Shown: positions 58,185 through 64,000 of the stretch, piece after piece
Position numbering within the stretch: the first letter of the stretch is position 1
Layout of the letters: every line of letters begins with the position of its first letter
Assembly: GCA_026984935.1 (NCBI GenBank)
Contig: JALSRD010000002.1
Coordinates: 1-64,000, forward strand
Length of the DNA: 64,000 nt
Source of the DNA: Desulfobacterales bacterium
Lineage (GTDB): Bacteria; Desulfobacterota; Desulfobacteria; Desulfobacterales; JALSRD01
Reading direction: 5' to 3'
Notes under the pieces: generated by a model
Seen by the model: only the letters and a program-made list of their open reading frames with translations
Told to the model about the DNA's origin: nothing
Database searches by the model: none
Program-made: the position numbers and the translations under genes

Positions 58185-59303
58185 TTATATTCGCATGGGC
58201 ATCACGACGCTCAGGTAGCTCTTGTCCTGCGCGCCCTGAATGTAGCAGGGTTTTTCGTTGTTCTTGATGCTGACAATCACCTGGTCATCTTCAATGACAT
58301 TGAGTGAATCGATAAAAAAGCGTGGGTTGAAGGCTGCTTCCACGGGATCACCCGTAAAACCGATAGGCATGTCCTCCTTGGATTCGCCAATTTCCGGATT
58401 CGTGGAGTTGATCAGCAGAACATCATCTTTAAAATTAAATATCACACACTTATAGCTATCCGTGGAGAGAATGGACATGCGTTTCAACATCATCAAAAAC
58501 AAATTTCGATCCATAACGATTTCGGTATAGCCGGATTGATCGACAATCTCGCTGTAGTCCGGAAATTCTCCTTCCAGCAGGCGAATCACTAAAGTTTCCT
58601 TTTCCTTTTTCACCACCAGGTGATTGTCCATGAACCCCATCTGCACGAACTCGTCGCCTTCCAGAAATTTTCCGACTTCAACCAACTCCTTTTTGGAAAT
58701 CAGCACCCCTTTTTCAAAGGGAACCTGCATTTCTTCTTTGAGTGCATAATCGACTTTGGACAAACGGCTGCCGTCTGTTGAAACCATTCGGATATAGTGT
58801 TTGTCGCCTTGTCGCAGGCATTCGAAAAAAACACCGATAACGTGGGCCCGTTTATCATCGCCGGCACCGGTGATAACCACGGACCGTTCAATCATTTTCT
58901 TAAGTGCGGAAGACTTCATTTCAAAAAAGGGAATATCCTGGATTTCCGGGTTGCCGGGAAAATCTTCCGGATTCATACCGACAATATGATAGAGCACTTT
59001 TTCGTTGCCGATCTCGATCCAGTGATTTTCAAGCTCATTGATTCGGATTTCTTCACTGGGAAAATCTCTTACAATTTCAAAAAGTTTCTTGGCATTAATC
59101 ACCACCATACCTTCGGAGCGCACTTTTGCGGTAAAATGTCCCTCATACCCGGTTTCAAGATCGGTTGCCGCCAGTACGACGCCGGTATCGCTGGTTTTCA
59201 TCAGCAGGGACGATGTAATGGCCAGGCTGCTCTTTCTGCCGGTCAACCCCTGTATCTTGGACAATACATCCAAAAAATCGCTTCGTTTGATGGCAATGTT
59301 CAT
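58185..59303 (-). CDS. dnaN: DNA polymerase III beta subunit (sliding clamp)
   Basis: A 372-residue DnaN, the ring clamp that gives the replicative polymerase its processivity. The three repeated clamp domains are recognisable by MNIAIKRSDFLDVLSKIQGLTGRKSSLAI, NPEDFPGNPE, EFPDYSEIVD and the C-terminal SYLSVVMPMRI. The length is typical. ATG at 59303 follows GAGGT; a GTG one codon earlier is an alternative. It is upstream of gyrB on the minus strand. No dnaA gene is present before it; instead two RdgC-like genes lie upstream. Confidence 0.97.
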   Translation of the reverse strand: MNIAIKRSDFLDVLSKIQGLTGRKSSLAITSSLLMKTSDTGVVLAATDLETGYEGHFTAKVRSEGMVVINAKKLFEIVRDFPSEEIRINELENHWIEIGNEKVLYHIVGMNPEDFPGNPEIQDIPFFEMKSSALKKMIERSVVITGAGDDKRAHVIGVFFECLRQGDKHYIRMVSTDGSRLSKVDYALKEEMQVPFEKGVLISKKELVEVGKFLEGDEFVQMGFMDNHLVVKKEKETLVIRLLEGEFPDYSEIVDQSGYTEIVMDRNLFLMMLKRMSILSTDSYKCVIFNFKDDVLLINSTNPEIGESKEDMPIGFTGDPVEAAFNPRFFIDSLNVIEDDQVIVSIKNNEKPCYIQGAQDKSYLSVVMPMRI

Positions 59304-59343
59304 CACAACCTCTTTTTTCTTTTTTTATTTAAAAACAAGGGAG

Positions 59344-59521: not shown

Positions 59522-60040
59522 TCAACGGTCCATCCAGCGACTGATCTGCGGGCGTGTTTTGGTTTCCCAGGCATCCGACAGGCGCTCTTTGACGAAGACT
59601 TGAAAAAGCGTTTCGATTTTTGCAATGATTTGCTCGCAAAGATAAATCCGGTTCAAGGCGGCGCCCTCGAGATCTTCTTTGGTTTCAACGAGCTCGGTTT
59701 CCGGAAAACTGAGGTTGGATATGGCCAGGCTCTCGGCTTTGAGGGTAAAACGCCATTTCAGGTTTGCCTGGCTGTAAGTAAGGTTGGCCTCGGAAACCCC
59801 GGCGCCCTTGCGAAGGGCGATGAAGGCCTCTTCAAAGCCGGCGTCATCTCCCTTGATGGTGATGGTTTCCAGTCCCTCGCGGGATCGGTTTTCCAAAACG
59901 ATGCGGTTTCCCATCTGAAAGACGCCATCGTCCGGTGAATCCGTTTCGTGGTTCTGGGTGTCGATTCGATGCCAAAGCCATGTTAAAAATTCGTATCCCA
60001 AAAATTTATAGCGGTTATAGGCGACTGCCAGATCAAGCAT
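59522..60040 (-). CDS. RdgC-like protein, C-terminal half (separate gene)
   Basis: A 172-residue protein whose N-terminus contains FLGYEFLTWLWHRID, matching the GxEFLTWLW stretch in RdgC-family proteins, followed by an acidic and beta-rich part (VLENRSREGLETITIKGDDAGFEEAFIALRKGAGV) typical of the RdgC C-terminal half. Together with the preceding gene it would make a complete RdgC. It starts with its own ATG, overlapping the upstream stop by eight bases, so it appears a translationally coupled separate polypeptide rather than a simple frameshift. RdgC binds DNA and limits RecA. Assignment rests on pattern recognition. Confidence 0.65.
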   Translation of the reverse strand: MLDLAVAYNRYKFLGYEFLTWLWHRIDTQNHETDSPDDGVFQMGNRIVLENRSREGLETITIKGDDAGFEEAFIALRKGAGVSEANLTYSQANLKWRFTLKAESLAISNLSFPETELVETKEDLEGAALNRIYLCEQIIAKIETLFQVFVKERLSDAWETKTRPQISRWMDR

Positions 60041-60659
60041 GCGACCCCTCCCGAAAAGAAACCGGCGAAAGTTGGAGCAGCCTGTCTTGCTCTGAATGAC
60101 TGAGTTCCGATGCCAGTACCGCCTGGGTATAGGGAAAGAGCCTGACCAGCGACAGGTTGAAGGACTTTAAAAACAGGGCTTCCAATTCTTCATTGGCCGA
60201 TTTTAGGGTCGAAAAGAGCCAGAGGCGTTCCTTTTCATAGTCCCATATCAGATCGTAGATATTGGGGGTGGCCGGAATCTGGCGGCAAAGGTTCTGCACG
60301 ATCTGTTCTTTCAGCAGTTTTTTTTCGTTACTGGAAAGAAAACCGCGGCCGTTTTCACGTTTGCGTTTCTCGATTTCGAGACTGCAATGTTTGCGGATGG
60401 TTTTGGCCGCAAGCGTTTTTTTGTCGATTCGAAGGGCAAACAGAAAATACGTACCGATCATAAAGGAAGATCCGCGGAAGTCGGGCTGAAAGGGCGTCTG
60501 CCAGGATGTCCAGCCGGCACTTTTTTCATCAGTCTGCTGATCAATTTCCATAATACAGTTTTTACGAAGGCCCGTGAAAACGGATTCCACCGCTGAAGAT
60601 TCAAATTTACCGTTTACTTTGTAGCGGCTGACCGATACGCTGGAAGACAGCAATCCCAT
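60033..60659 (-). CDS. RdgC-like protein, N-terminal half (separate gene)
   Basis: A 208-residue protein resembling the first two-thirds of RdgC: a beta N-terminus (MGLLSSSVSVSRYKVNG), FMIGTYFLFALRIDKKTLAAKTIRKHCSLEIEKRKRE, then FLSSNEKKLLKEQIVQNLCRQIPATPNIYDLIWDYEKERLWLFST, which parallels the KDEVLHSLLPRAF and IDTVNGLI region of E. coli RdgC. It overlaps the following gene by eight bases. It lies divergent from the EndoQ-UvrD gene, with a 112-base AT-rich spacer that could hold promoters for both. Confidence 0.7.
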   Translation of the reverse strand: MGLLSSSVSVSRYKVNGKFESSAVESVFTGLRKNCIMEIDQQTDEKSAGWTSWQTPFQPDFRGSSFMIGTYFLFALRIDKKTLAAKTIRKHCSLEIEKRKRENGRGFLSSNEKKLLKEQIVQNLCRQIPATPNIYDLIWDYEKERLWLFSTLKSANEELEALFLKSFNLSLVRLFPYTQAVLASELSHSEQDRLLQLSPVSFREGSHA

Positions 60660-60771: not shown

Positions 60772-63700
60772 ATGAAATTTATCGCGGATCTGCATGTGCA
60801 TTCAAAGTTTTCCAGGGCGACTTCCAAAACCCTGGATCTCGCAAGCATCTTTGTGGCGGCGCGCCTGAAGGGAATTGGCGTCGTCGCCACCGGTGATTTT
60901 ACGCATCCGGCCTGGTTTGCGGAAATTAACGCCAAACTGGTTGCGGCCGAACCCGGCTTCTTTCGGCTGGAAGATGAACTTTGGGCAGCCTGTGAAGAAA
61001 AAATACCGCCGGGAATCCATGGAGAGGTCCGGTTCGTGCTGGTTGCGGAAATCAGCAACATCTATAAAAAAGATGGCCGGGTGCGCAAGAATCACAACCT
61101 GGTTTTCATGCCGGACCTGGAAAGCTGTGCGCGTTTTAATCAAAAACTTGAAAAAATCGGTAACATCCAATCGGACGGCCGGCCCATCCTGGGCCTGGAT
61201 GCGCGCAACCTGCTCGAAATCGTAATGGAAGTTTCCGAAGATGCTTTTCTGATACCCGCCCACATCTGGACCCCCTGGTTTTCGGTGCTGGGGTCCAAAT
61301 CCGGTTTCGAGTCGCTGCAGGCGTGTTTCGAAGACCTGACCAAATACATTTTTGCCGTCGAAACCGGGCTTTCTTCGGATCCGGGAATGAACTGGCAGGT
61401 ATCCGAACTGGACCGCATGACCCTGGTTTCAAATTCCGACGCCCATTCCGCCGACAAACTGGGGCGCGAAGCCAATTGGTTCGACACCGATTATAACTAC
61501 TTCGGCATCCGCAGGGCCCTGGAATTTCCGGAGAGAAAGGAATTGCTGGGAACATTTGAATTCTACGCCCAGGAGGGAAAGTATCATTTTGACGGTCACC
61601 GCAAATGCGGCGTGAGTCTCAGCCCGGCGGAAACCCGATCTCTCGACGGAAAATGCCCGGAATGCGGAAAACCGCTGACCCTGGGAGTCCTGAATCGCGT
61701 TATGCAGCTGGCGGACCGCCGGCCTGGTTTCGAGCCACCCGATGCACGCCCCTATTTCAGTATCTTGCCGCTGCGCGAAGTCCTGTCGCAGATCCTGCGC
61801 GTGGGGCCCAATTCCAAGAAAGTTGCGCGATACTACCGTCGGGCGCTGGAAAAATTCGGCAGCGAGTTTGACATCCTGCACCACATAAAGCCTCAGCACC
61901 TGAACAGTACGGAAATACCGCTTTTGGGAAAAGCCATCGAAAAAATGCGCCGCGGCCGGATCAAGATACTTCCCGGGTTTGACGGGCAATTCGGCAAACT
62001 CCAGCTCTTTGACGACCAGGAACGCGAACAGCTGCTGGGCCAGGCCAGCCTTTTTGCGGTTCCGCCGGCGTTGGAACATACGCTTAGCAGCCGGACGGTC
62101 CCGGTCGCGGCCACCGCCGGCACAATGGCGCCGGAAAAGCGCAGAAGCATATCGCAAGCTCCCGGACATCAGCGCAAAGCGGAAATTGGCCGGGATTTAA
62201 ACGCGGCCCAGCGCCAGGCAGTTTTATGCGTCCGCGAACCGCTGCTGATCGTGGCCGGTCCGGGTACGGGAAAAACCCGCACCCTGACACACAAGGCCGC
62301 CTACCTGATGGTCGACAAAAAAATCGCCGCGGAGCAGATTCTGGCCCTGACCTTTACCAAACGGGCGGCGACGGAAATGCAGACCCGCCTGGAAAGGCTC
62401 GCCGGAGCGCGCTGCAGATCTGCAACGGTAACCACTTTTCACGGCCTCTGCCGGCAGCTTCTGGCGGGTTCCGGGAGCTATCTGCTCGACGCGCTGGCGC
62501 AGCGCAACTGGGTCAGAGAAGCGCTGGCGATGGTCAAAAAGAGAAGCGAAAAATTATCCTCGCGTGATTTGGAGCGGGCACTGTCCACTATCGCTTCGGC
62601 CAAACAGCAGCTGTTGTCGCCGGCGCGGTTTTTTGAAAAAAGAGGGCGCCTCCAGGCGGCAGATGCACAGCATAAAGTCTATGCCGCCTATCAGCGGCTG
62701 TTGGACAGCCAGAATATCGTGGACTATGAGGATCTGATTTTTAATGTGGTGCATGATCTGGAAGAGAATGCCGTTTTGCGCAAGACACTCCGGCAGCGGT
62801 TTCGATATATCCTTGTCGATGAATACCAGGACATCAATTACGCGCAGTACCGCCTGATTCGGCTGCTGGGTGCAACTGCCGAACAGGTGTGCGCCATTGG
62901 AGACCCGAATCAGTCCATCTATGGCTTCAGGGGGTCGAATCCGCAGTATTTCCTCAATTTCATGCAGGATTATCCCAACGCCAGGCTGGTTGTGCTTAAC
63001 AGAAATTATCGTTCCACGCGCACCATTTTGAGCGCAGCGGCACAGGTCATCAAGGGATACGAACTGGCTGTCGACACGGCATCGGATTTTCGGTCCAGAC
63101 AGGTAAAAGCCGTGGATTCCGGCATCCGGGGTTATCCGCAGGTGGATCTCATCGAAGCTTCCTCACCGCGGGCGGAAGCCGTTGCAGTGGGCAGGGTCAT
63201 TGAAAATATGGTCGGCGGCCTGTCGCTGCATTCCATTGACAGCGGCAAGGTCTCGCCTTACACCAAGTCCGCCAACAGGAGTTTTGCCGACTTTGCGGTG
63301 CTGTACCGCACGGCTGAGGACGGCAGGCTTTTTTCCGATGTTTTCCGCCGGGCGGGCATCCCGCACCAGGTATCTGCCCGTGAACATGCGCTGGACCGCG
63401 GAGGCGTGCGCGACCTGCTGGACCTGTTGAAGCTGGTTGAACGACAGGCCAGTCTGCTCGATTTTGAGAAAGTCGCCGGCCTGCATGTGAGCGGCCGGAG
63501 AATCAGCCGGCATTCCTGGCGATGCTTCAAGTCCTGGTGTTTTGATCGCAAATTGGATTTACAGGCAGCCGCCGCGCACCTGCAGCGTTTTCCGGTCCCC
63601 GGGTTAAGCACGGCCCAGCAGCGCGAATTGAACACGTTTGCAGCGGCCGTCGAGGACGTAAGGGCACAGATTAAAGACCTGCCCGTGGCCCGCAAACTGG

Positions 63701-64000
63701 TGCATTTGAGCCGTCATGATGACTTTCCGCACCTGAAAAGCGTCTTTGAATCCGACGAAGGTGCGTGCCGGGAATTGAAAAACCTGCTTGCGGAAGCCGG
63801 GCAAGCCGGATTCAAGGCCGATGCTTTTCTGGCCGATATTAGCTTAAGGACCGACGCGGACCTGCTTAAAGCCGGTGTTGAAAAGGTTGCCCTCATGACC
63901 ATGCACGCGGCCAAGGGCCTCGAATTTCCGGTGGTTTTTATTGCAGGCTGCAGCCAGGGAAATATTCCCTATATCCGCGAAAAAGATGAGGCCGACGTGG
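60772..64000 (+). CDS. Endonuclease Q-type PHP domain fused to a UvrD-family helicase (truncated by window edge)
   Basis: An uninterrupted frame of more than 1,076 codons with no stop before the window ends; it was not in the supplied list because it is open-ended. Residues 1-260 are a PHP phosphoesterase with DLHVHSKFSRATSK (H8, H10), GDFTHP (41-46) and NSDAHS (221-226). A zinc-binding knuckle (H276, C279, C295, C298) follows and then a helical region to about 400, matching Endonuclease Q, which nicks DNA beside deaminated bases. From about 475 it is a superfamily 1 helicase: Walker A GPGTGKT (496-502), VDEYQD (682-687), GDPNQSIYGFRG (710-721) and HAAKGLEF (1045-1052). No strong ribosome site is visible. 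It lies divergent from the RdgC-like pair. Confidence 0.88.
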   Translation, partial: MKFIADLHVHSKFSRATSKTLDLASIFVAARLKGIGVVATGDFTHPAWFAEINAKLVAAEPGFFRLEDELWAACEEKIPPGIHGEVRFVLVAEISNIYKKDGRVRKNHNLVFMPDLESCARFNQKLEKIGNIQSDGRPILGLDARNLLEIVMEVSEDAFLIPAHIWTPWFSVLGSKSGFESLQACFEDLTKYIFAVETGLSSDPGMNWQVSELDRMTLVSNSDAHSADKLGREANWFDTDYNYFGIRRALEFPERKELLGTFEFYAQEGKYHFDGHRKCGVSLSPAETRSLDGKCPECGKPLTLGVLNRVMQLADRRPGFEPPDARPYFSILPLREVLSQILRVGPNSKKVARYYRRALEKFGSEFDILHHIKPQHLNSTEIPLLGKAIEKMRRGRIKILPGFDGQFGKLQLFDDQEREQLLGQASLFAVPPALEHTLSSRTVPVAATAGTMAPEKRRSISQAPGHQRKAEIGRDLNAAQRQAVLCVREPLLIVAGPGTGKTRTLTHKAAYLMVDKKIAAEQILALTFTKRAATEMQTRLERLAGARCRSATVTTFHGLCRQLLAGSGSYLLDALAQRNWVREALAMVKKRSEKLSSRDLERALSTIASAKQQLLSPARFFEKRGRLQAADAQHKVYAAYQRLLDSQNIVDYEDLIFNVVHDLEENAVLRKTLRQRFRYILVDEYQDINYAQYRLIRLLGATAEQVCAIGDPNQSIYGFRGSNPQYFLNFMQDYPNARLVVLNRNYRSTRTILSAAAQVIKGYELAVDTASDFRSRQVKAVDSGIRGYPQVDLIEASSPRAEAVAVGRVIENMVGGLSLHSIDSGKVSPYTKSANRSFADFAVLYRTAEDGRLFSDVFRRAGIPHQVSAREHALDRGGVRDLLDLLKLVERQASLLDFEKVAGLHVSGRRISRHSWRCFKSWCFDRKLDLQAAAAHLQRFPVPGLSTAQQRELNTFAAAVEDVRAQIKDLPVARKLVHLSRHDDFPHLKSVFESDEGACRELKNLLAEAGQAGFKADAFLADISLRTDADLLKAGVEKVALMTMHAAKGLEFPVVFIAGCSQGNIPYIREKDEADV

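Follow-up and report, generated by a model that had tools for sequence, protein, structure and literature searches.

The window analyzed here (64,000 nucleotides of a Desulfobacterales contig) ends within a long open reading frame that encodes an endonuclease Q (EndoQ) and a UvrD-like helicase. This frame extends from 60772 to 64212 on the plus strand (1,146 aa, window plus continuation in the same contig); it runs open through the window end, and its final 212 bases lie beyond. The source genome is 3.9 Mb long and 99% complete; it encodes EndoQ once and, apart from the fusion, a canonical UvrD/Rep-type helicase (650 aa). The nearest named relatives of the fusion are Desulfobacterales. The features of the locus are as follows.

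58185..59306 (-): dnaN, beta sliding clamp; three Pfam beta-clamp domains; recurrent neighbor
59522..60040 (-): conserved 172-aa gene, no Pfam match; recurrent neighbor
60033..60659 (-): RdgC-like gene, 208 aa, divergent neighbor; PF04381, E 2e-9; conserved in Desulfobacterales
60772..64000 (+) in the window: EndoQ-UvrD fusion gene, 1,146 codons; motif VI (64003-64053), QLKLF (64195-64209) and stop (to 64212) outside
60772..62022 (+): EndoQ domain, residues 1-417, with PHP nuclease, zinc site and C-terminal region; PfuEndoQ, TIGR00375, fold match of a homolog model to 5zb8
60793..61446 (+): equivalents of the Pfu metal and lesion-pocket residues, H8, H10, D42, E93, H108, H164, E197, G199, S201, D223 and H225; alignment
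61597..61665 (+): zinc site H276-C279-C295-C298 (Pfu C249, C252, C268, C271); alignment with PfuEndoQ
62023..62193 (+): linker, residues 418-474; low-confidence region of a homolog model
62041..62055 (+): first predicted beta-clamp motif, QASLF, residues 424-428, directly after EndoQ; present in 19/28 fused loci
62194..64000 (+), cut by the window end: UvrD-like SF1A helicase, residues 475 to ~1136; PcrA/UvrD profile matches
62257-62277 (+): helicase motif I; sequence motif
62815-62832 (+): helicase motif II; sequence motif
62896-62937 (+): helicase motif III; sequence motif
63895-63939 (+): helicase motif V; sequence motif
64003-64053 (+), beyond the window: helicase motif VI (EERRLLYVAMTRARERL, residues 1078-1094)
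64195-64209 (+), outside the window: C-terminal predicted beta-clamp motif, QLKLF; sequence pattern

The fusion is found near the RdgC-like gene, the 172-aa gene and dnaN in about 12 Desulfobacterales loci. The RdgC-like and 172-aa genes lie between dnaN and the fusion (59522-60659), and this pair recurs in those ~12 loci. Other neighbors include gyrB and a lytic transglycosylase; no GajA and no defense island were found at the locus.

The initial annotation described an EndoQ and a UvrD-like helicase in a single chain, and separate profile matches to each part bear this out. It also reported all core helicase motifs as seen, which is correct for the whole gene and impossible within the window, because motif VI sits past the window end. 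That an assembly or frameshift error joins two genes is extremely improbable. Two separate genes do exist in some relatives, but no stop or frameshift separates the domains here, and the same architecture is encoded in one uninterrupted frame at 94 loci; these come from independent assemblies, among them a complete chromosome (Desulfonema magnum, L114). We rejected an artifact for the family on this basis. Both parts are also under selection: dN/dS in scorable close pairs was 0.06-0.12 for EndoQ and 0.10-0.21 for the helicase, and the linker was usually under weaker constraint. Purifying selection on EndoQ and helicase indicates that both halves are maintained.

The EndoQ part, the helicase part and the clamp motifs

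Residues 5-412 align to PfuEndoQ residues 5-382 (5zb8/7k30) with an E value of ~2e-50, which covers the whole EndoQ length and extends beyond the PHP domain. The N-terminal part also matches TIGR00375 at 156 bits, below the cutoff of 326.6; TIGR00375 is a hypothetical-equivalog model with a strict cutoff, so the shortfall concerns the label more than the homology. Pfam PHP models of polymerases or histidinol phosphatases gave no match to this part at E values up to 1, with weak PHP_C the only hit. An identity as either of those PHP types was rejected on these grounds, and the original assignment to EndoQ holds.

Glu76, His84 and His139 are essential in Pfu EndoQ, and His139, Gly169 and Ser171 exclude normal T and A (PMC8307549). 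The corresponding residues of the fusion (E93, H108, H164, G199 and S201 for Pfu E76, H84, H139, G169 and S171) are invariant across 141 bacterial domains, 94 fused and 47 unfused. H8, H10, D42, E197, D223 and H225 are likewise kept in these domains, save one row truncated before H8/H10. These conserved residues argue for EndoQ chemistry and substrate range. A zinc knuckle had been noted, and a four-ligand site is present as H-C-C-C, with the first Pfu Cys replaced by His. Set beside the known enzymes (PfuEndoQ, TkoEndoQ and those of M. acetivorans and B. pumilus), the N-terminal 412 residues thus align full length, keep the catalytic and pocket residues and are followed by a clamp-type motif. 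The known enzymes are single enzymes, whereas the fusion adds a helicase and a second clamp motif, has H-C-C-C in place of C4 and scores under the TIGR00375 cutoff.

Residues 475-1136 match PcrA/UvrD in profile searches, and motifs I, II, III, V and VI together with a UvrD fold (taken from a homolog model) place this part in SF1A. Motifs I, II and V are found in all 86 full-length fusions, motif III in 85 and motif VI in 82. The core motifs and fold are common to UvrD/PcrA/Rep, but the fusion helicase scores far under the PcrA/UvrD/Rep equivalog cutoffs (411.8 versus 911.2 bits for PcrA, a cutoff that the canonical helicases of this phylum also miss), groups apart and ends in a QLxLF clamp motif. 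The partner helicases, whether fused, adjacent or unlinked with a clamp tail, stand apart from canonical UvrD/PcrA/Rep in a tree in which 42 canonical helicases form one group (SH-aLRT 98); the tree was made with a quick search, and one long-branch row (L228) lies outside the group and breaks perfect separation. An identity as a UvrD/PcrA/Rep ortholog was rejected because of the sub-cutoff scores and separate placement.

Some genomes with unfused EndoQ contain a free-standing UvrD-like helicase, mostly ~500-680 aa and mostly with a QxxLF-type clamp ending (L223-L227, L231, L243-L253, L256-L258 and L262). These free-standing partner helicases appear to form an undescribed helicase group. In genome G038, a 936-aa UvrD-related frame (L261, 579-3389, plus strand) has about equally low scores against both helicase groups.

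The fold comparisons use an AlphaFold model of the Desulfonema magnum homolog rather than of the source protein, with the domains read singly (pTM 0.59). The mean pLDDT is 85. The EndoQ part matches 5zb8 with an rmsd of ~3, and the UvrD part reaches a target-normalized TM score of 0.89 to UvrD/PcrA. Confidence is low for the linker (427-473) and the last 13 residues.

QASLF and QLKLF both read as putative clamp-client pentapeptides, located at a chain end or within a disordered region. The pattern Qxx[LFM][FL] is present at the C terminus in 24/28 fused loci, against a shuffled mean of 0.4, and directly behind EndoQ in 19 of the 28, against a shuffled mean of 0.8. It ends lone EndoQ in 20/33, a group including four EndoQ genes with an adjacent helicase, and it also ends all four adjacent helicases, versus 1/453 other ORFs of the same loci as a control. 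The wider pattern Qxx[LFMI][FLI] falls in the last 20 residues of 81/86 full fusions. The motifs are predicted to hold the fusion on the beta clamp. TkoEndoQ binds PCNA and is stimulated through a C-terminal PIP box (Shiraishi et al., PMC4858679). The same study remarked on beta-clamp motifs in bacterial EndoQ homologs, so the motif that follows EndoQ was already known; the candidate helicase clamp motif, and the pair of motifs in one chain, are new as far as the searched literature shows.

Replisome work is another role that the clamp motifs would fit. The PHP part might then proofread or trim ends as an exonuclease while the helicase clears obstacles in front of it; PolIII alpha PHP domains have such activity, which was once suggested for the Pyrococcus homolog (PMC3820547). 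We consider this very improbable, as later biochemistry of the EndoQ family describes lesion-specific nicking, the lesion-pocket residues are all kept and no polymerase-PHP model matches.

Distribution of EndoQ, its helicase and other deamination-repair genes

EndoQ has been placed in "some bacteria" (PMC4357722), and the initial annotation likewise spoke of archaea and some bacteria. It is far more common in bacteria than this annotation implied: 132/198 genomes drawn from the source phylum contain it, and its bacterial range is wider than that phrase implies. Complete EndoQ ORFs in this phylum are bimodal in length, mostly ~410-560 and ~880-1190 aa (long class, n=51). A scan of species representatives returned at least 590 relatives, and the best 80 of these are mostly fusions. 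Among the matches listed, 94 fused loci span about a dozen phyla, and fusions are present in Thermodesulfobacteriota, Myxococcota, Chloroflexota, Gemmatimonadota, Elusimicrobiota, Melainabacteria, Actinomycetota, Balneolota, Fibrobacterota, Planctomycetota, Binatota and others; many of the fusion-bearing species listed are metagenome-assembled.

The EndoQ tree contains 142 rows (141 bacterial plus Pfu), with 94 fused, 8 adjacent and 39 lone loci; the lone class was set by a short flank, and two loci called lone (G071 and G125) proved adjacent. Fusion status switches at least 11 times on this tree. Lone EndoQ of the source phylum forms the deepest branches, with the root unsure because the Pfu outgroup is very long. 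L064 and L103, very close to the fused L099, have lost the helicase half with EndoQ intact. Since lone EndoQ is kept both where the helicase was lost (L064 and L103) and where it was never joined (the deep branches), the helicase is not indispensable for EndoQ.

EndoQ is linked to one helicase lineage. A partner helicase is present in at least 23/68 lone-EndoQ genomes (two of them adjoining EndoQ) versus 1/66 EndoQ-less genomes (Fisher 4e-7, kinship ignored); the remaining 45/68 have no verified partner helicase. Partner helicases were picked by profile and then by a sequence check, with the C-terminal-end cut set after the first results, and three (G028, G083 and G155) were counted on sequence despite missing that cut. 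The EndoQ-less genome with a partner is G003, where a contig edge truncates the helicase to 194 aa and its 5' part is absent from the assembly. A second EndoQ-less candidate, G154, was rejected because its helicase is canonical.

The source genome contains two UDG-superfamily genes and no EndoV. UDG is present in 174/198 genomes of the phylum and in most fusion genomes, the source genome included, and a general loss of UDG among EndoQ genomes was rejected accordingly; the pattern stands out in one family only (f46, centered on G076). There, EndoQ is present in 36/39 genomes and 32/32 good ones, nearly all ORFs being of fused length, and PF03167 is present in 16/39 and 14/32. Eighteen of the 32 good genomes have EndoQ with no UDG detected by the PF03167 search, which leaves room for UDGs outside PF03167. 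EndoV is present in 16/51 fused-type versus 35/66 EndoQ-less genomes (p 0.02, uncorrected), and the comparison with EndoQ of any form gives p 0.13. An EndoQ-EndoV anticorrelation was set aside as weak and confounded by phylogeny.

The constancy of EndoQ in f46 (32/32 good genomes), the clamp motifs and the gyrB, dnaN and RdgC-like neighbors kept over ~12 loci are unlike a patchy defense gene, and make it highly improbable that the fusion serves in antiviral defense by cutting and unwinding invading DNA with uracil or modified bases. A possible antiviral role of bacterial EndoQ is mentioned in a review (PMC8307549), and the PADLOC GajB models match the helicase. Those models match any UvrD-like helicase, however, and a defense-system identity was rejected because the matches are generic helicase matches only. 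Gabija GajB shares the UvrD-like helicase domain, but its partner is the TOPRIM nuclease GajA, whereas the fusion has an EndoQ domain, a housekeeping context and broad conservation.

Proposed function and its meaning

We propose that the fusion is a clamp-tethered, nick-and-unwind repair endonuclease-helicase for deaminated bases and AP sites, with a probability of roughly two in three. The EndoQ part would act on deaminated bases (uracil, hypoxanthine or xanthine) and AP sites, by analogy with PfuEndoQ and with the B. pumilus enzyme as reported. It would flip the lesion out and nick on its 5' side, which would produce a 3'-OH and a 5'-phosphate end bearing the lesion. After an EndoQ nick the lesion sits on the downstream 5' end, and this end has to be displaced. 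With the linker holding it at the nick, a motor with the polarity of UvrD/PcrA would move 3'-to-5' along the intact strand, displacing exactly the lesion-bearing end and peeling it off. A polymerase would then probably extend the 3'-OH, a flap nuclease cut the flap and a ligase seal the strand, while both predicted clamp motifs, the one behind EndoQ and the C-terminal one, would tether the enzyme to the beta clamp. The published archaeal model has polymerase strand displacement and Fen1 act after EndoQ (PMC4858679).

This reading is supported by the EndoQ and motor residues; the fused, adjacent and unlinked pairing; the helicase grouping and co-occurrence; the clamp motifs; the dnaN neighbor; selection; and family f46. 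Weighing against it are lone EndoQ without a helicase, UDG in most fusion genomes, the 45/68 genomes lacking a verified partner and L228. The initial annotation had joined damage recognition, nicking and strand removal in one enzyme, which at the level of sequence stands. Its term "self-contained repair" goes too far, because the protein has no part for flap cutting, synthesis (gap filling) or ligation; the clamp motifs suggest that these come from other clamp clients.

The nick might instead be the entry point for long-patch excision like that of mismatch repair, with the helicase unwinding a long tract for an exonuclease to degrade. Methylation-independent mismatch repair is built on clamp-linked nicking together with a UvrD helicase (PMC8744996), and the partner helicase has the complete make-up of a UvrD-like motor; the endonuclease form of MutL with UvrD on the beta clamp shares with the fusion the putative order of clamp-linked nicking and then UvrD-type unwinding. 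That system, however, uses separate proteins, MutS mismatch sensing and a nuclease domain unrelated to EndoQ, and profile searches found neither an exonuclease domain nor a MutS/MutL-like part in the fusion. EndoQ recognizes damaged bases unaided, so a search from a distant nick is unneeded, and no recurrent exonuclease neighbor was found except the RdgC-like gene in one order. Long-patch excision is therefore unlikely.

No description of an EndoQ-helicase fusion was found in the literature searched; subscription papers, including the B. pumilus EndoQ study, and figures were outside the search. Figure 9A of PMC4357722 presents bacterial EndoQ proteins, including Desulfovibrio, and may include a drawing of a fused one. 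Why EndoQ persists in bacteria has been described as unclear (PMC4357722).

Several bacterial phyla commonly contain EndoQ, which has been described as mainly archaeal. To our knowledge, it is not established how repair in bacteria continues after the EndoQ nick; a helicase that is fused, adjacent or co-occurring and has its own putative clamp motif names the likely next step. The fusion would bring recognition, nicking, unwinding and clamp binding together in one protein. It is conceivable, though doubtful, that bacteria widely use clamp-tethered, glycosylase-free repair in which one polypeptide recognizes, nicks and unwinds, and that this is the main uracil route where no UDG is detectable. 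Lineages with the fusion and no detectable UDG may offer genetic access to glycosylase-free uracil repair.
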